A stretch of 64,000 nucleotides of DNA from the NCBI RefSeq assembly GCF_014305095.1, contig NZ_JACRUI010000002.1, positions 248,001 through 312,000 on the forward strand, in the 5' to 3' direction. Source of the DNA: Flavobacterium kayseriense. GTDB taxonomy: Bacteria > Bacteroidota > Bacteroidia > Flavobacteriales > Flavobacteriaceae. Positions 27,516-34,197 of this stretch are shown piece after piece. The notes below the pieces were generated by a model. It made no database searches, was not told the DNA's origin, and saw only the letters and a list, made by a program, of their open reading frames with translations. Numbering within the stretch: position 1 is the stretch's first letter; each line of letters begins with the position of its first letter. A program made the position numbers and the translations under genes.

Positions 27516-28811
27516 TTACTTCAGTATACCAGCTTTGTAAGTTGCGATTGCCCTATCACGTGCAAAAGCATGTTCTACCATAGGAGCACAGTACCCTAAG
27601 TCAAACTCAGGAATCCATTTACGAATGTATCTTCCTTTTTCGTCAAACTTTTTAAGTTGAATTTCAGGATTAAATACTCTAAAATAAGGAGCAGCATCAC
27701 AACCTGTACCAGCTGCCCACTGCCAGTTACCAACATTAGCAGACAAATCGTAATCTAATAATTTTTGAGCAAAATAAGCTTCGCCCCATTGCCACTGAAT
27801 CATGAGATGCTTAATTAAAAAACTAGCCACTACCATGCGTACGCGGTTGTGCATATATCCAGTCTCATTGAGCTGACGCATTCCAGCATCAACCATTGGA
27901 TAGCCTGTTTTTCCTTCACACCATCTTTTAAAATCGGCCTCATTATTGCGCCACTCTATTCCGTCATAAGCTGATTTAAAATTGTGAGTGACCACTTTTG
28001 GAAAACTAAAAAGTATCTGCATAAAAAATTCACGCCAAATCAATTCACTTAAAAAAACACCGTTTGATTGCGCAGCATAATTGACCATTTTACGAATACT
28101 TACCGTACCAAAGCGTAAGTGAGGTGATAAATAAGATGTGGAATCTACAGCAGGAAAATCACGTGTTTCTTCGTAATTAGAAACTCCTTTAAAAGTATAA
28201 GGTTTCACTTTTATTTTACTTTCAACAAAACCAATATCTTCAAGAGTTAGTAAAGAAGAAGAACTTTTAAAGAAATTACTATAAAACGCTGTACCATTGT
28301 ATTCTTGTACTGGTGCAGTACTTTTATAATTCTCTAACCACTTGTTTTTATAAGGAGTATAAACGGTATAAGGTAAACCATCAGCTTTGGTAATCTCTTT
28401 TTCTTCAAAGATAACTTGATCTTTAAAAGAATAAGAAATTATATTATTATGATCTAAGAATTCACAAATCGCTTCGTCTCTTTTGATCGCGTATGGCTCG
28501 TAATCTTTATTAAAAAAGACTTCTTTAATGTCGTACTCATCTACTAGAGACTGCCATACTTCTTTAGTACTTCCGTTTTTCACCAACAATGAGCTGCCAA
28601 TTGATTGTAATTCTTTATGGATCGTTGTTAAGTTTTCATGTATAAAAGTAACCCGAGCATCATCTTTAGGCAGTTTATCTAAAATATCTGTATCGAAAAT
28701 AAACAATGGAATAATAGGAAAATCACTCTTTAAAGCATGAAATAAACCAATATTATCCTCTAGTCTTAAATCGCGTCTAAACCAAAAAAAGGAAACCGCT
28801 ACTCTACTCAT
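27516..28811 (-). CDS. phrB: Deoxyribodipyrimidine photolyase (class I CPD type)
   Basis: This 431-residue light-driven DNA repair flavoprotein has the N-terminal antenna domain starting VSFFWFRRDLRLEDN and a C-terminal FAD domain with GYPMVDAGMRQLNETGYMHN, WRE near LSELIWREFF, and NVGNWQWAAGTGCDAAPYFR. The last contains the tryptophan of the electron-transfer chain and the asparagine near flavin N5 typical of class I CPD photolyases. The length is that of a photolyase without a cryptochrome tail. It shares a TAATG overlap with the SRPBCC gene, so the pair is translationally coupled and probably light- or stress-controlled. Confidence 0.94.
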   Translation of the reverse strand: MSRVAVSFFWFRRDLRLEDNIGLFHALKSDFPIIPLFIFDTDILDKLPKDDARVTFIHENLTTIHKELQSIGSSLLVKNGSTKEVWQSLVDEYDIKEVFFNKDYEPYAIKRDEAICEFLDHNNIISYSFKDQVIFEEKEITKADGLPYTVYTPYKNKWLENYKSTAPVQEYNGTAFYSNFFKSSSSLLTLEDIGFVESKIKVKPYTFKGVSNYEETRDFPAVDSTSYLSPHLRFGTVSIRKMVNYAAQSNGVFLSELIWREFFMQILFSFPKVVTHNFKSAYDGIEWRNNEADFKRWCEGKTGYPMVDAGMRQLNETGYMHNRVRMVVASFLIKHLMIQWQWGEAYFAQKLLDYDLSANVGNWQWAAGTGCDAAPYFRVFNPEIQLKKFDEKGRYIRKWIPEFDLGYCAPMVEHAFARDRAIATYKAGILK

Positions 28812-29275
28812 TATTTTATATTAAACATTTTGTCAACTGCTTTTTCTCTAAAATCAAAAATCTCTTTTAATTTATTCTCAACTACTAATGTGTTCATAAT
28901 ACGTCCTAAAAAACCAAGCGGTAAACCGTAGTGAACTACATCAGTCATCTTGACACCACCATCTGGAGTTGCCTCAAAAAAGTGTTTGTGGTGCCATAAA
29001 GAATATGGCCCGAAGCGCTGCTCATCTATGAAATAACTATTTTCCTTTACCGCAGTGATTACCGTCATCCACGACAAGGTAATACCTAATAATGGTCGCA
29101 CTTTGTATTGTATAACTTGGCCTGGATAAACTGTTTTGCCATCATAATCGGTTATTTCAAAACCCATATCTGATGGCGTAATTTTTTGTAAATTTCGTGG
29201 GCTAGAGAAAAATGACCAACATTCCTCCAAACTAGCAGTAACGTGTTGAACAGATTCTTTTTTATATATTTTCAT
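28811..29275 (-). CDS. SRPBCC-family (polyketide cyclase/START-like) protein
   Basis: This 154-residue START-like lipid-binding fold shows the text LEECWSFFSSPRNLQKITPS near the N-terminus and RFGPYSLWHHKHFFEATPDGG in the middle, which match small SRPBCC proteins that often neighbour photolyase genes and are sometimes named cell division inhibitor without evidence. The ATG at 29273-29275 (MKIYKKESVQ) is preferred; the longer frame to 29350 runs into repeat E. The stop overlaps the photolyase ATG. The ligand is unknown, possibly a hydrophobic isoprenoid. Confidence 0.85.
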   Translation of the reverse strand: MKIYKKESVQHVTASLEECWSFFSSPRNLQKITPSDMGFEITDYDGKTVYPGQVIQYKVRPLLGITLSWMTVITAVKENSYFIDEQRFGPYSLWHHKHFFEATPDGGVKMTDVVHYGLPLGFLGRIMNTLVVENKLKEIFDFREKAVDKMFNIK

Positions 29276-29315: not shown

Positions 29316-29440
29316 GCGTGAGGGATTGCAACGGAGCTCTTTATAAACACGACTTTTTAGTCGTGTTTATAAAAGCGGGAGTATAAAGCCCGACCTATTT
29401 ATAAATCGATTTTCGGATTTATAAATAGATCACGCCCTAC
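29316..29440 (-). repeat. Repeat element with two perfect hairpins (copy E, related family)
   Basis: This non-coding element lies between crtZ and the SRPBCC gene. Hairpin 1 has a perfect 14-bp stem (29341-29354 with 29359-29372) and a TTTT loop. Hairpin 2 has a perfect 13-bp stem (29395-29407 with 29416-29428). Between and around them lie AAAGCGGGAGTATAAAGCCC, GGGATTGCAACGGAGCTC and CACGCCC. The head and the AGCCCGACC tail recall the CTAGCCC/GATAGCAGCGG text of copies A-D, so this may be a sister family. It could attenuate read-through from the carotenoid genes into the photolyase pair. Confidence 0.65.
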
Positions 29441-29445
29441 TATTA

Positions 29446-29886
29446 TTACATTTTATAATATTTGAAAGGAACGAATAGCATTCCGAATACCCTACTGTCT
29501 TCCTTGCCCATATTTTTATGGTGTACTTTGTGTCCTTTACGTAAACCAATCAAGTACTTATTATTCGTATTCTTGAACCATTTAAAACGTTGATGAATCA
29601 GGACATCGTGAATCATAAAATAACTAAGACCATAGGCAAAAATACCTAACCCAATAAAAAACAGATAATTGAAACCTGCCTCAGCACCAAAATAAAACAA
29701 AGCTATTGACGGTATGGCAAAAATCACGAAAAATATGTCATTGCGCTCAAAGGGGTGCTCGTATTTTGGCTGATGGTGATCTTCATGAAAATACCACATA
29801 AAGCCGTGCATCACGTACTTATGTGTTAGCCAAGTAACGCACTCCATAATAAGGAAAACCGCTAAAAAAATCAAAAAGGATATCAT
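29446..29886 (-). CDS. crtZ: Beta-carotene hydroxylase CrtZ-like (fatty acid hydroxylase superfamily)
   Basis: This 146-residue di-iron membrane enzyme would hydroxylate the beta-ionone ring to give zeaxanthin. All four histidine clusters are present in order: HKYVMH, HEDHH, HDVLIH and HKVHH. About four hydrophobic helices surround them. Length and motif spacing match bacterial CrtZ. It is the third gene of crtI-crtB-crtZ (27 bp after crtB). A lycopene cyclase (crtY) is not in the window, so the substrate must be made by a gene elsewhere. Confidence 0.93.
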   Translation of the reverse strand: MISFLIFLAVFLIMECVTWLTHKYVMHGFMWYFHEDHHQPKYEHPFERNDIFFVIFAIPSIALFYFGAEAGFNYLFFIGLGIFAYGLSYFMIHDVLIHQRFKWFKNTNNKYLIGLRKGHKVHHKNMGKEDSRVFGMLFVPFKYYKM

Positions 29887-29913: not shown

Positions 29914-30756
29914 TTACTGAACTAAACGTAATTTATAGGTAACAAAAGACTGTGCTAAGAGCCCCGCTTTTGTATAATTAGAGACGCGTATACGAGAATT
30001 ACCTATCTCGTGATATGGCGTGTTTTTTAGTTTGGTTAATAACTTTTTGTAATAAACATAAGCCGTATAAACCCCAAATTTAGCTTCCATTGGCAACTTA
30101 ACTATTCCTTGGTAAGCGACTCTAAAGTCTTCTTCGATTTCTGTGATAATAGCCGTTTTAGCATTTTCATCAAAAGATTTAAGGTCAACACCTGGGAAGT
30201 AGTTTCGATTTAAAAGTAGATTGTCGTCCTTTAAATCGCGCAAGAAGTTCACTTTTTGGAAAGCAGATCCAAGACGCATTGCCTCCCCTTTTAATGCTTC
30301 GTATCGATCATCGTGACCAGAAACAAAAACTCTTAAACACATTAATCCTACTACATCAGCAGAACCATATATGTATTCTTCATATTCTTCTTGACTGTTA
30401 TAATCAGATTTTACTAAATCTAATTTCATACTTTTCAAGAATGACTGTATCATATCATCCGTTATATTATATTCTTTCACAGTTTGTTGAAAAGAATTTA
30501 ATATTGGATTTAAACTTATGCCTAAGTTATAAGCTTTATAATATTCTTTTTCGAAATCATCAATCAGGACTTCCTTGTCAAAACCATGAAACGAATCTAC
30601 AATTTCGTCAGCAAAACGTACGAAACCATAGATGCTGTAAATAGCATCCCTTATACTTGGCGACAGCATGTAAACTGCCAATGAAAATGAAGTAGAATAG
30701 TTTTTAGTTACTAATTTACTACACTTAAAAGAAACATCGTCAAATAATTGCTTCAT
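29914..30756 (-). CDS. crtB: Phytoene synthase CrtB
   Basis: CrtB condenses two geranylgeranyl diphosphates to phytoene, the first committed carotenoid step. The 280-residue helical enzyme has two acidic Mg-diphosphate motifs, DEIVD in RFADEIVDSFHG and the second in NFLRDLKDDNLL, and the conserved YxxGSADVVGLMCLRVF block. Its start codon is one base away from the crtI stop, so synthesis is coupled to the desaturase, the usual bacterial arrangement. Confidence 0.95.
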   Translation of the reverse strand: MKQLFDDVSFKCSKLVTKNYSTSFSLAVYMLSPSIRDAIYSIYGFVRFADEIVDSFHGFDKEVLIDDFEKEYYKAYNLGISLNPILNSFQQTVKEYNITDDMIQSFLKSMKLDLVKSDYNSQEEYEEYIYGSADVVGLMCLRVFVSGHDDRYEALKGEAMRLGSAFQKVNFLRDLKDDNLLLNRNYFPGVDLKSFDENAKTAIITEIEEDFRVAYQGIVKLPMEAKFGVYTAYVYYKKLLTKLKNTPYHEIGNSRIRVSNYTKAGLLAQSFVTYKLRLVQ

Positions 30757-30757
30757 A

Positions 30758-32227
30758 TTATTTTTGTAAAAATTGTTTATTAATCAAATCCGACACTAAT
30801 TTACCCGAAATTAATGCAGGAGGTACTCCAGGGCCAGGAACCGTTAATTGCCCGGTAAAATATAAGTTACGAACTTTTTTACTTTTTAGTTTAGGGCGAA
30901 GAAAAGCAGTTTGCAACAAGGTGTTTGCCATTCCATATGCATTCCCTTTGTAGGAGTTGTATTCCGAAACAAAATCGTTCTTGCAAAATGACTTTTTAAA
31001 TATAATATTTTTTTTGACATTTTGTTTAGTAACCGACTCAAATCGATTCATTATTTTTTCAAAGTACTCTTCTCTTAAGTCCTCACTGTCATTAATTCCA
31101 GGTGCTAACGGAACTAAAAAGAAAGCAGATTCCATTCCTTCTGGAGCAGCACTCTTATCCGTAACAGAAGGGAAATTAGCGTAGAACAACGGCTCATCTG
31201 GCCACTTTGGTTCATCATAAATATCTCTTGCATGTTGATAAAAATCAGTGTCAAAAAACAACGCATGATGCGACATATTTTCTATTTTTTTATCAAAACC
31301 AACATAAAAAAGTAAGGAAGAAGGTGCAAAAACACGACTGTCCCAGTACTTTTCAGAATACGCACGGTGCTCTTGATCCAATAATGTTTCGGTATGATGG
31401 TAGTCTGCACCGCTTAATACTAAATCAGAATCGATTCTTTCACCATTTACTACAATGGCTTTCGCTGTTTTATTTTCGACAATTATTTTCTCGATATTTG
31501 AGTTGGTGTGAAAAACAACTCCAAGCTCTTCGGCTAGGCTTTTCATGGCACGCACTACGTCAAACATCCCCGTTTTTGGATGCCAAGTTCCAAGTCCAAA
31601 GTCGGCATAATTCATAAAACTATAAAAAGAGGGCGTATCAGAAGGTTTTGCTCCCAAAAAGAGAACTGGAAATTCTAATATTTGAATCAATTGCTCATTC
31701 TTGAATTTTTTGCGAACATCGCGACTTATATTACTAAAAAACTCACCCACTTTTTTCGCTGTTTCTACCGTAACTAATTCTAGTGGAGAAACGCCTGGAC
31801 GGTATACTAAATCTTTAATGGCAATGTTGTAATTACTTTGAGCTTCCATCATGAAATCATGTAAGACAGCACCGCTCCCTTTTTCTATTTTTTCAAATGT
31901 TGCTTCTATTTCACGTAAATTATCAGCGATCGCTATAAACTCATCCACACCAAAATAAACTCTGTAGGCCGGAGATAGCTTTATCAACTCATAATAATCA
32001 GTTGTTTTCTTACCAAAATCAGCAAAAAAACGATCAAAAACATCAGGCATCCAGTACCAACTTGGCCCCATATCAAAAGTAAAACCATCAATTTTTAATT
32101 GTCGTGCTCTACCTCCTACTGATTCGTTTTTTTCATAAACATGCACGTCATGACCACTTTTAGCTAAATACGACGATGCTGCTAAAGCAGAGAATCCCGA
32201 ACCTATTATTGTAATTCTTTTCTTCAT
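30758..32227 (-). CDS. crtI: Phytoene desaturase CrtI
   Basis: CrtI is an FAD-dependent membrane-associated desaturase that converts phytoene to lycopene. The 489-residue protein has the N-terminal dinucleotide motif GSGFSALAASSYLA, the segment ESVGGRARQLKIDGFTFDMG with GPSWYWMPDVFD, and the C-terminal FAD motif near LYFTGQLTVPGPGVPPALISG. It begins 17 bp after the MerR/B12 regulator stop, with no promoter or terminator between, so it is probably transcribed from the regulator's promoter. Confidence 0.95.
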   Translation of the reverse strand: MKKRITIIGSGFSALAASSYLAKSGHDVHVYEKNESVGGRARQLKIDGFTFDMGPSWYWMPDVFDRFFADFGKKTTDYYELIKLSPAYRVYFGVDEFIAIADNLREIEATFEKIEKGSGAVLHDFMMEAQSNYNIAIKDLVYRPGVSPLELVTVETAKKVGEFFSNISRDVRKKFKNEQLIQILEFPVLFLGAKPSDTPSFYSFMNYADFGLGTWHPKTGMFDVVRAMKSLAEELGVVFHTNSNIEKIIVENKTAKAIVVNGERIDSDLVLSGADYHHTETLLDQEHRAYSEKYWDSRVFAPSSLLFYVGFDKKIENMSHHALFFDTDFYQHARDIYDEPKWPDEPLFYANFPSVTDKSAAPEGMESAFFLVPLAPGINDSEDLREEYFEKIMNRFESVTKQNVKKNIIFKKSFCKNDFVSEYNSYKGNAYGMANTLLQTAFLRPKLKSKKVRNLYFTGQLTVPGPGVPPALISGKLVSDLINKQFLQK

Positions 32228-32244: not shown

Positions 32245-33159
32245 TTAATCGTTAAACAAGTTTTCAATATTATCTGTTAATTCTTTAATAGAATTATAGA
32301 TCGTTATCTGTTCTGACAGGCCTTTGCGATCTAAAAACTCAACTAATCTTCCAGTGAGCCACAATTCAGTTTTATCATCAAGCAAAACATCAGTCATTTC
32401 CTGAACGTATTCATCTATAACAGTTCGGTCTGGCTGGACGGTAAAGAAGGAAACAAAAATAATAGATTCAAAATGTTTTTTAAGTTCCTTTAAACTTTCA
32501 ATTGGCATACTTTCGCCCAAGTATATACTTTTGTATCCACTAAGCAGTATCTCATAATGTAAATACATTAGTCCTAACTCGTGGATTTCATTCATAGGAA
32601 GTGACAAAACAAAAACCTTCCCTTTTTTTGTAGCTTCTACCTGTTGCAATTTCTCTGAGTTTACCAATAACTTCTGTTTGATAAGATAACTTACAAAATG
32701 TTCATGAGCAGGAGATATTGTATCTGTTTGCCATAACAATCCTAACTCATTTAACAATGGAATAAAGACTTGATGAAAAATTTCTTTGAAAGATTTCTCT
32801 TCAATTAGCCAGTTATATGTGTTCAAGAAAAGTTCCTGATCAAAGTTCATCATTGCCATCTTAAACGCACTAATAGCATGACTTTTAGCATTTTTAGACG
32901 AAACAATCTCGCGTACTAATGATGGGATTTTGTCCTCAGGATAAGAAGCAATTTTGGATATTTTATAGCCGTATTCATGTAGCAAGGTGATGTTTAACAA
33001 TTTCTGTAAGCTTGCTAAGTCATACAATCTAATGTTAGTATCTGTTCGCATAGGTTGTAATACATTGTATCTTTTTTCCCAGATACGAATAGTATGTGCT
33101 TTGATCCCTGAAAGGTTTTCAAGATCCTTGATACTAAAGACATTTTTTACATTGTTCAT
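32245..33159 (-). CDS. MerR-family regulator with cobalamin-binding domain (CarH/LitR-like photoreceptor candidate)
   Basis: The 304-residue protein has an N-terminal MerR winged HTH (about 8-77; FSIKDLENLSGIKAHTIRIW), a helical B12-cap domain with the W-x9-E-H motif (W143, E153, H154), and a C-terminal cobalamin-binding Rossmann domain with E-I-H-E-L-G (lower-ligand His193). These are the motifs by which CarH/LitR bind adenosylcobalamin and release DNA in light. The residue after the motif Trp is Gln144; as I recall, Thermus CarH has a histidine there (His132) that ligates cobalt after illumination, so photochemistry may differ. The ATG at 33157-33159 is chosen because the promoter overlaps the longer frame. 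It lies directly upstream of crtI and is likely autoregulated. Confidence 0.88.
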   Translation of the reverse strand: MNNVKNVFSIKDLENLSGIKAHTIRIWEKRYNVLQPMRTDTNIRLYDLASLQKLLNITLLHEYGYKISKIASYPEDKIPSLVREIVSSKNAKSHAISAFKMAMMNFDQELFLNTYNWLIEEKSFKEIFHQVFIPLLNELGLLWQTDTISPAHEHFVSYLIKQKLLVNSEKLQQVEATKKGKVFVLSLPMNEIHELGLMYLHYEILLSGYKSIYLGESMPIESLKELKKHFESIIFVSFFTVQPDRTVIDEYVQEMTDVLLDDKTELWLTGRLVEFLDRKGLSEQITIYNSIKELTDNIENLFND

Positions 33160-33173
33160 CGTTTTTCCGTATT

Positions 33174-33221
33174 TGATAAACAAATGTAAAACAAAATATA
33201 GTGAAAACAGCTAAAACTGTT
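33174..33221 (-). promoter_or_regulatory. Promoter and operator candidate of the CarH-like/crt operon
   Basis: A TACATTTG -7 element lies at 33181-33188 (minus strand). Two adjacent 11-bp direct repeats, TGATAAACAAA (33174-33184) and TGTAAAACAAA (33185-33195) on the plus strand, share 9 of 11 bases and place ACA exactly 11 bp apart across the -7 element. Just upstream AACAG-N6-CTGTT (33206-33221) forms an inverted repeat. MerR-type B12 photoreceptors are known to use tandem 11-bp direct repeats, so this is a plausible binding site. The predicted start site is near 33174. Confidence 0.5.
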
Positions 33222-33234
33222 AAAAATAATTATT

Positions 33235-34197
33235 TTAAGGTAACGGAACAAAATCAAATTCGTTTAGTTTATCTAGGTATAACACTGTTTTTGAGTTATC
33301 TACACTTCTTGCATACATGGGCTTAAACTTAGCACCATACACAACTTCATCAAAAGTGTAAGAAGATCTTGTAGCTACTGTTGTACTAAACATGTCATCA
33401 AAGGTTTTTATAAAAACTAATATTTCACCATGAATCGATTGAAAATCACTTTCGGTAAGTTGATACAAAGGACTTTCGGCTGTGATAGGATGCACTAAAG
33501 TCCAACTTAAAGTTAACGCACTGATTTGAGCTAATTCTAAATCCAACTGATAAAATTTATTAGCCATGATACCATTTTCCATTATACTCATCCCCAAAGT
33601 CATTTGCGCTTCGGCATCAGTAAAGTTAGTATTTTTAAAAGGAGACAACCGAACCATTAAGGCTGTCCCGCTGCCGTAAGGAGCAATAATCGCATTCTCT
33701 GAAAATTTTAAAAAAGCGGTTGGCTTACTGAAGCGTCCAAAAAATAATCCCGTAGCAATAGCAAAGCTAAGTAAACCCATTAAAGCCTCAGCAGCTGATA
33801 ATGCGCTTGTTAAAAATCCCGTAGGACTTATATGTCCATAACCAACTGTGGTGAAAGTTTGTGCGCTAAAAAAATACGCTTGTCCAAACTTGACCACTTC
33901 ACTATCAGTGCTTGTGATACCATCAAGATGCTCTATGCCAATGATATAATAGATTACAGCAAAAACAAAATTGATAGTAATGTAGAAACTCAAAATAATA
34001 AACATAAATCTCCACGTGTTCATATCAATCATAGTATGGTACCAACTCGTTCTACGAAAAAGGTGCATTCCCACTTTTTCTACATTAGCTTTTCCGTCTT
34101 TATTTATAAATCGACCACCATAGCTACTAGAATTTGTACCAAATCCCGAGTTTTTATCTGCTTTTGCGTTTAGATTAATTTTTTCTACGTTCTCCAT
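33235..34197 (-). CDS. KirBac-type inward-rectifier potassium channel
   Basis: This 320-residue channel has two membrane helices around a pore loop (about 64-87 and 130-155), the selectivity filter T-V-G-Y-G at 117-121, and a C-terminal immunoglobulin-like cytoplasmic domain of about 160 residues beginning near FGRFSKPTAFLKFS, as in KirBac1/3. The N-terminal slide-helix region (SWYHTMIDMNTWRFM) is recognisable. KirBac channels conduct potassium and are gated by lipid or pH. It lies upstream of the B12 regulator, with a 75-bp gap containing the regulator's promoter, so co-transcription is uncertain. Confidence 0.93.
   Translation of the reverse strand: MENVEKINLNAKADKNSGFGTNSSSYGGRFINKDGKANVEKVGMHLFRRTSWYHTMIDMNTWRFMFIILSFYITINFVFAVIYYIIGIEHLDGITSTDSEVVKFGQAYFFSAQTFTTVGYGHISPTGFLTSALSAAEALMGLLSFAIATGLFFGRFSKPTAFLKFSENAIIAPYGSGTALMVRLSPFKNTNFTDAEAQMTLGMSIMENGIMANKFYQLDLELAQISALTLSWTLVHPITAESPLYQLTESDFQSIHGEILVFIKTFDDMFSTTVATRSSYTFDEVVYGAKFKPMYARSVDNSKTVLYLDKLNEFDFVPLP

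Follow-up and report, generated by a model that had tools for sequence, protein, structure and literature searches.

The DNA analysed here, called the window below, is a stretch of 64,000 nucleotides from Flavobacterium kayseriense. Its minus strand carries a run of genes in the order carH-crtI-crtB-crtZ-SRPBCC-photolyase, with a carH-like gene at the head:

32245..33159, minus strand: carH-like gene, 304 aa, one complete open reading frame (ATG at 33159, stop at 32245)
about residues 8-72 of its product: MerR DNA-binding domain
about residues 91-172: four-helix bundle
about residues 178-303: Rossmann subdomain
32728..32730, minus strand: CAA codon of Gln144, aligned to His132 of Thermus thermophilus CarH (TtCarH)
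30758..32227, minus strand: crtI/crtD-type phytoene desaturase, starting 17 nt after the carH stop
29914..30756, minus strand: crtB, phytoene synthase family (SQS_PSY, Pfam)
29446..29886, minus strand: probable crtZ carotene hydroxylase, no Pfam or NCBIfam match over cut-off
28811..29275, minus strand: probable SRPBCC-type protein, frame open from a GTG at 29350
27516..28811, minus strand: DNA photolyase, overlapping the preceding gene by one base

The preliminary description had placed a CarH/LitR-like protein next to carotenoid genes at 32245-33159, giving no strand, and this observation holds for the minus strand; on the plus strand, frame 1 is interrupted by many stops over the same interval. 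The crtI product reaches 725 bits with the NCBIfam CrtID model, for which the cut-off is 640. Two of the names are assumptions of ours: we take 29446..29886 to be crtZ from its look and position, and 28811..29275 presumably encodes an SRPBCC-type protein, the one profile match being sub-threshold (Polyketide_cyc2, E 0.019).

The carH-like protein matches two MerR profiles of Pfam over cut-off, PF13411 (MerR_1) at 5e-13 and PF00376 at 8.5e-7, as well as the four-helix B12-binding_2 domain at 4e-10, and phmmer pairs it with T. thermophilus CarH/LitR (3whp, 5c8d) at an E-value of about 1e-15. Its key residues are W143, Q144, E153-H154 and E191-I-H193-E-L-G196, so that W-x9-EH (W143, E153, H154) and ExHx2G with its lower-axial His are both present, as is the MerR fold that had been claimed along with them. 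Other CarH features, on which the preliminary description is silent, are lacking. The SxV/T...GG portion of the classical B12 motif is absent, the corresponding residues being S237-F-F-T240 and G270-R271. The Rossmann subdomain has no match to Pfam PF02310, though the predicted fold contains it; this profile detects just 5 of 22 carH family members. The SignatureFinder light signature consists of GxxW, EH, GxxH and GxxxP, and the protein has GLLW, EH and GESMP, but reads N190-E-I-H193 with Asn for Gly at the GxxH element, and so does not carry all four. It also scores 77 bits against the 400-bit cut-off of the NCBIfam CarH equivalog NF052513, which is reached by none of 198 Bacteroidota genomes and none of 14 control genomes; the rows of that search mostly represent generic MerR or B12 domains, so they serve for this count only. 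Because SxV/T...GG and GxxH were both looked for and are both missing, we class the protein as a CarH-like variant and not as a strict CarH.

In an AlphaFold2 model based on 62 family sequences (pLDDT 87, pTM 0.69) the MerR domain is followed by a four-helix bundle and then by an alternating Rossmann domain. The modelled bundle helices cover residues 91-104, 108-121, 124-144 and 150-172, with Q144 at the end of the third. The 12 leading Foldseek matches of the model all come from full-length chains of TtCarH (E 7e-14 to 2e-11), and VIA-align gives the highest Z-score for TtCarH (20.8, over 198 residues at 2.7 A), followed by SasPcob (19.8 dark, 19.7 light), CtMerR (19.0 and 18.9), another photocobilin (8j2y, 17.6) and then MetH (17.2). 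As modelled, the protein has the four-helix bundle plus Rossmann B12-binding fold of the CarH class, and a common fold is by itself no proof of cofactor binding. Judged by its motifs, binding of AdoCbl is plausible. The organism's own genome also encodes a cobalamin adenosyltransferase (PF01923, E 2e-63), a family found in 89 of 100 genomes searched, this one included, and PF02310 finds three other B12-binding frames in it, one of which is a methylmalonyl-CoA mutase (PF01642). The presence of adenosyltransferase and mutase together fits a cell that contains AdoCbl.

The residue that follows the Trp had been singled out as Gln in the place of the cobalt-ligating His of Thermus CarH. The phmmer alignment sets Trp131-His132 of TtCarH, whose identity we confirmed on the Thermus HB8 record, over Trp143-Gln144, and the stretch from Trp to EH aligns without a gap. 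This rules out a shifted His standing in for His132, and one of the results that the preliminary description had named as refuting it, an alignment that puts a His there, did not appear. A one-off error at Gln144 is likewise ruled out: among 167 aligned rows (window excluded) the Gln codon is CAA in 123 and CAG in 32.

What did not survive is the idea that Gln marks an unusual protein. We collected 260 loci with relatives, collapsed identical proteins to 230 and left loci L171-L201, which served other questions, out of the count; the window's genus and family are over-represented in this sample. The Bacteroidota-wide set of 230 distinct proteins has Gln at the 144 place in 167, followed by Leu (18), Arg (8), Met (6), Ile and Lys (5 each) and His (4), with other residues fewer. 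When the Trp, Glu, His and lower His are all required, 221 proteins remain, and these still include the 167 with Gln and the 4 with His. At the level of the window's order (144 distinct proteins) the preference is stronger still, with Gln in 128, Leu in 8, His in 3, Arg in 2, and Ile, Met and Thr in 1 each; beyond the order Gln loses its dominance, and Leu, Ile, Met, Val, Arg, Lys and others become frequent. Gln is thus, in the sequences sampled, the usual residue of the clade, and variation at this position has already been published for other proteins (PMC11796333, PMC10979010). The facts of the preliminary description are correct but less surprising than they appeared.

The surrounding motif is more strictly kept: W143 is conserved in 227, E153 in 230, H154 in 226 and H193 in 221 of the 230 distinct proteins, whereas the Gly of GxxH is present in 44. 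Conservation of the Gln144 column is high but not extreme, since 73 of the 304 columns are at least equally conserved in a 168-row subset. L235, L255 and L257 are examples of proteins that have lost parts of W-x9-EH, with the Trp or the His gone. Three other proteins, L039, L040 (both crt-linked) and L269, have Arg at the Gln place together with Asn or Ser for the lower axial His; these are perhaps B12-independent and CarA-like.

A tree of 143 of the 230 proteins, calculated with the column of the Gln144 place removed, contains a clade of 71 rows (SH-aLRT 82) that holds the window and most Flavobacteriaceae, with Gln in 66, His in 3, Leu in 1 and Thr in 1. Three changes are needed to explain the His label: in Kordia, in a genome of the window's genus (L013) and in a distant family (L282). 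L013 pairs with a row that has Gln, in a set where 12 rows have Gln and 1 has His; the partner of Kordia has Leu, and the larger group around them is dominated by Gln. These placements suggest a direction from Gln to His, although the tree alone does not separate a gain from a loss. For relatives on plasmids we found 59 records, 32 of them from Thermus, and sampled 15, of which 2 are from Thermus. Four of the 15 lack an intact W-x9-EH, two of these from Bacteroidota. The 11 with intact motif all lie outside Bacteroidota and have Gln (3), Ala (3), Glu (2), Arg (1) and His (2), the two His proteins being those from Thermus. The His of TtCarH is therefore the less common state in these samples of Bacteroidota and plasmid-borne relatives. 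Because most relatives lack His132, the bis-His 'lock' may be a special case and not the rule. In the literature searched, from which supplementary files and preprints were excluded, we found no description of Gln in Flavobacteriaceae CarH.

The gene order is conserved well beyond the window. Among 80 named loci from GTDB genomes, crtI lies directly downstream of carH on the same strand in 78 (the exceptions are L102 and L149), crtB lies within 3.5 kb of carH in 77 and a crtZ-like gene within 5 kb in 76; a photolyase within 6 kb is found in 20 and an SRPBCC-like gene in 18. The carH-like gene itself is widespread without being present everywhere: within the genus 52 of 61 genomes (own included) have a strong match, 8 have none and 1 has a weak one, and in a phylum-wide sample 85 of 395 genomes yield a match at 1e-20. 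Genomes G130, G258 and G270 each contain two or three carH-like matches, and some proteins of this kind are the L235, L255 and L257 mentioned above, with the Trp or the His of W-x9-EH lost. The contigs of L102 and L109 bear the titles of Rhizobium sp. and Klebsiella pneumoniae MAGs and carry a Flavobacterium-like carH (66% identity), so these records are likely mis-titled or mis-binned. Just upstream of carH in the window is an inward-rectifier potassium channel gene (33235-34197, minus strand; PF17655, PF01007), a homolog of which occupies this position, on this strand, in several loci of the genus.

Between this gene and the carH start lies a candidate promoter and operator:

33172..33188, minus strand: TACATTTGTTTATCAAA, a Bacteroidota-type -7 box fused to the putative half-site TTTGTTTA
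33188->33181, minus strand: the -7 box TACATTTG, within TACATTTGTTTATCAAA
33179-33184, minus strand: first TTTGTT, 25 nt before the carH ATG, overlapping the -7 box
33190..33195, minus strand: second TTTGTT, exactly 11 bp upstream of the first

We take TACATTTG to be a -7 box from the Bacteroidota consensus. The element recurs across the family. Of 162 distinct crt-linked carH genes, 148 have TAnnTTTGTT no more than 70 nt from the start and 130 have TTTGTTTA there, against means of 2.0 and 2.7 respectively in 100 dinucleotide shuffles (maximum 7). Upstream of other reading frames in the same loci the counts are 82/976 for TAnnTTTGTT and 84/976 for TTTGTTTA, figures from which overlap with the carH promoter was not removed. 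The distance from TTTGTT to the ATG is 25 nt in 98 of the crt-linked genes and 22 nt in 38. Counting distinct boxes, TT follows TAnnTTTG in 146 of 151 carH boxes versus 43 of 188 boxes of other reading frames, and A at +7 is present in 150 of the 151 versus 28 of the 43 that are followed by TT. Given these enrichments, the additional letters of the carH element exceed an ordinary -7 box.

The similarity to known CarH operators, which are 11-bp direct repeats of nAnnTnnACAn (PMC8156234), is partial. The reverse complement of this consensus holds TGTnnA, as does the window element, and three 11-bp operator units can be read upstream of Thermus carH. The last T of this match is not conserved, however. 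The window has its TTTGTT pair at 11 bp, with the nearer copy overlapping the -7 box, whereas the extra upstream copies of relatives lie most often 22 bp away (10 of the 162 genes), followed by 11 bp and 39 bp (6 each). In a thinned set of 122 genes the exact counts are 8 at 22 bp and 4 at 39 bp with a shuffle maximum of 3, and the 11 bp spacing falls outside the ranked list. A 39-bp spacing is not predicted by an 11-bp repeat.

A motif search of the organism's own genome gave 32+42 matches versus 34+27 for the reversed pattern, and because these counts are so close no regulon can be read from it. A possible second target of CarH is a flavin-reductase gene (PF01613, 7e-17). A palindromic TACTTTTGTTAAACAAAACTA lies between this gene and a penicillin-amidase gene (PF01804) at L295:8408-8429 (about 16408-16429 of contig C1 of the same genome), 24 nt before the flavin-reductase ATG. 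TTTGTTTA is found on one or the other strand in the 90 nt upstream of 13 of 14 close relatives (at least 66% identity, own included) and of 1 of 12 more distant ones. In Thermus, too, a flavin reductase lies a few genes from carH. Genome G003, which is 89% complete, has no carH match, yet retains the element before another gene; this counts against CarH as the sole binder. Elsewhere in the window's genome, at L296:6841, two TTTGTT-type copies 21 bp apart stand between fasciclin (PF02469) and CIA30 (PF08547) genes. Before the 10 relatives of the CIA30 gene the motif proved, by eye, not to be kept; a fasciclin gene also adjoins the MerR/B12 gene of Eleftheria.

The closest well-studied counterpart is CarH/LitR of T. 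thermophilus (5c8d, 5c8e, 5c8f, 8c31), which has the same MerR domain, four-helix bundle, Rossmann B12 domain, W-x9-EH and ExHxxG, and whose gene adjoins a phytoene-synthase family gene and a photolyase. The window protein differs in having Gln for His132, Asn for Gly in GxxH and no GG, and is only 17-19% identical over the B12 domain; its gene is also the first of the crt run itself. When His132 of TtCarH is replaced (H132A), AdoCbl binding and the tetramer are kept, the light product is hydroxylated Co(III) with a band at 352 nm, illumination leaves most of the protein tetrameric, and crystals of the mutant tolerate light (PMC10442372, which also mentions an earlier opposite report). For a time-resolved crystallography paper on CarH from 2024 our search returned none; PDB entries 9s06-9s0h (January 2026) exist.

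Among other light-responsive B12 proteins the His132 position varies, with Arg in CtMerR, Gln in SasPcob and Tyr in AbDPcob (PMC11796333). CtMerR of Chloracidobacterium thermophilum (8jbs, 8jbt) resembles the window protein in combining MerR and B12 domains, in having no His at this place and in responding to light, but has Arg, not Gln, is only 11-12% identical to it, and has a DNA-binding domain that diverges from that of TtCarH. It goes from tetramer to monomer in light, and the Glu of its EH motif turns toward cobalt through a water (all PMC11796333). The photocobilin SasPcob (8j2w, 8j2x) shares the Gln, but differs in having a C-terminal biliverdin-binding globin domain and, as far as the source describes it, no MerR domain (PMC11796333). 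It is a monomer in dark and light alike without biliverdin (PMC11796333) and goes from dimer to monomer in light with it (PMC11796333, PMC10979010); the light state is a monomer with water- or hydroxide-ligated Co(III), formed without the large bis-His movement (PMC10979010). Set beside TtCarH H132A, these two proteins show that the effect of an absent His depends on the protein. Closer to the window, it has been published before that a MerR/B12-domain gene leads a flavobacterial crt cluster: Flavobacteriaceae strain GF1 has such a regulator upstream of its zeaxanthin genes, as noted from the gene arrangement (PMC6974559). In our sample the GF1 protein (L132) has Gln at the 144 place and 62% identity to the window protein. 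Chryseobacterium lacus is reported to make carotenoids upon light induction (PMC7064467). CarA of Myxococcus xanthus, too, represses carotenoid genes as a MerR-type protein that has a B12-like domain, but it lacks W-x9-EH and acts without B12; the former is said largely to account for the latter (PMC8156234).

Taken together, we consider it rather probable that the protein represses its own operon, carH-crtI-crtB-crtZ-photolyase, in dependence on AdoCbl and is released by light. The basis from the present analysis is the sequence with its motifs, the predicted fold, the gene order, the conserved promoter element and the clade-wide Gln; from the relatives we infer AdoCbl binding, oligomer state, light response and repression, and we presume that the run from carH to the photolyase forms one transcript. 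In the dark, AdoCbl would be bound base-off/His-on, with H193 below and the adenosyl group capped by W143 and E153-H154, and would hold a head-to-tail oligomer together, whose MerR domains would occupy TTTGTTTA half-sites overlapping the -7 box and so block transcription. Light would break the Co-C bond and the adenosyl cap would leave. Since residue 144 is Gln, the bis-His state of TtCarH could not form, so that light sensing would call for a different route, as the preliminary description had suggested. Cobalt would instead take water or hydroxide, and a shift of the E153-H154 helix would weaken the oligomer and free the promoter. Several observations given above weigh against this account: the missing SxV/T and GG and the NxxH reading, the low yield of PF02310 in the family, the monomeric state of SasPcob without biliverdin, the partial operator match with its favoured 39-bp spacing, the motif counts close to the reversed control and the element kept in G003.

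The behaviour of TtCarH H132A raises the concern that absence of the His could abolish release altogether. The protein would then be a B12-gated repressor with no useful light switching, in which the AdoCbl oligomer represses, the photolysed form stays assembled and the operon reports B12 status. The mostly tetrameric, light-resistant mutant is just what this account expects, but the natural proteins with Arg (CtMerR) and Gln (SasPcob) do respond to light, and a photolyase shares the run with the carotenoid genes here, as one does in the 20 named loci counted above, a set of genes that light control suits better than B12 control. We regard it as unlikely. The loss might alternatively be made good by another residue that takes over from His132 as the upper ligand once light has acted, one candidate being H152, just before the EH motif. 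Of the 167 Gln-144 proteins 127 have H152, and the movement of the CtMerR Glu toward cobalt (PMC11796333) speaks for it as well. Yet the other 40 have Asn (26) or Gln (14), all 4 His-144 proteins have H152 as well, TtCarH has Glu at this place, and the side chain is expected to point away, which together make such a replacement very improbable. A repressor of the CarA type, which binds DNA without AdoCbl and is relieved by some other signal or partner, would account for the absent SxV/T...GG tail and for the lower His having become Asn in the crt-linked L039 and L040; since W-x9-EH, which CarA lacks (PMC8156234), is complete in this protein and hardly varies among its relatives, this too seems improbable, if slightly less so than a substitute ligand. 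The light-released autorepressor remains the reading we prefer.

Work on B12 light sensing takes TtCarH as its model and the bis-His state as the reference mechanism, and light-controlled materials and gene switches make use of this protein. Among the relatives sampled here few have the His, while the switch is otherwise retained and still stands ahead of the crt genes. We tentatively propose, as something a little short of an even bet, that the crt-linked regulators of Flavobacteriaceae, with many other Bacteroidota relatives, form a large branch of B12 photoreceptors free of bis-His ligation, in which Gln is functional and brings about another light state, with water on the cobalt and perhaps a switch that is softer or reversible, and within whose Gln-dominated clades His arose at least twice. 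Because of the Asn in GxxH most of this branch lies outside the published light signature, which suggests that the signature would overlook much of it. Natural orthologs differ in having Gln or His, so the disputed role of His132 can be tested by comparison, and if the proposal is true, the appearances of His inside Gln clades would show, in a comparison that nature has already set up, what the lock contributes.
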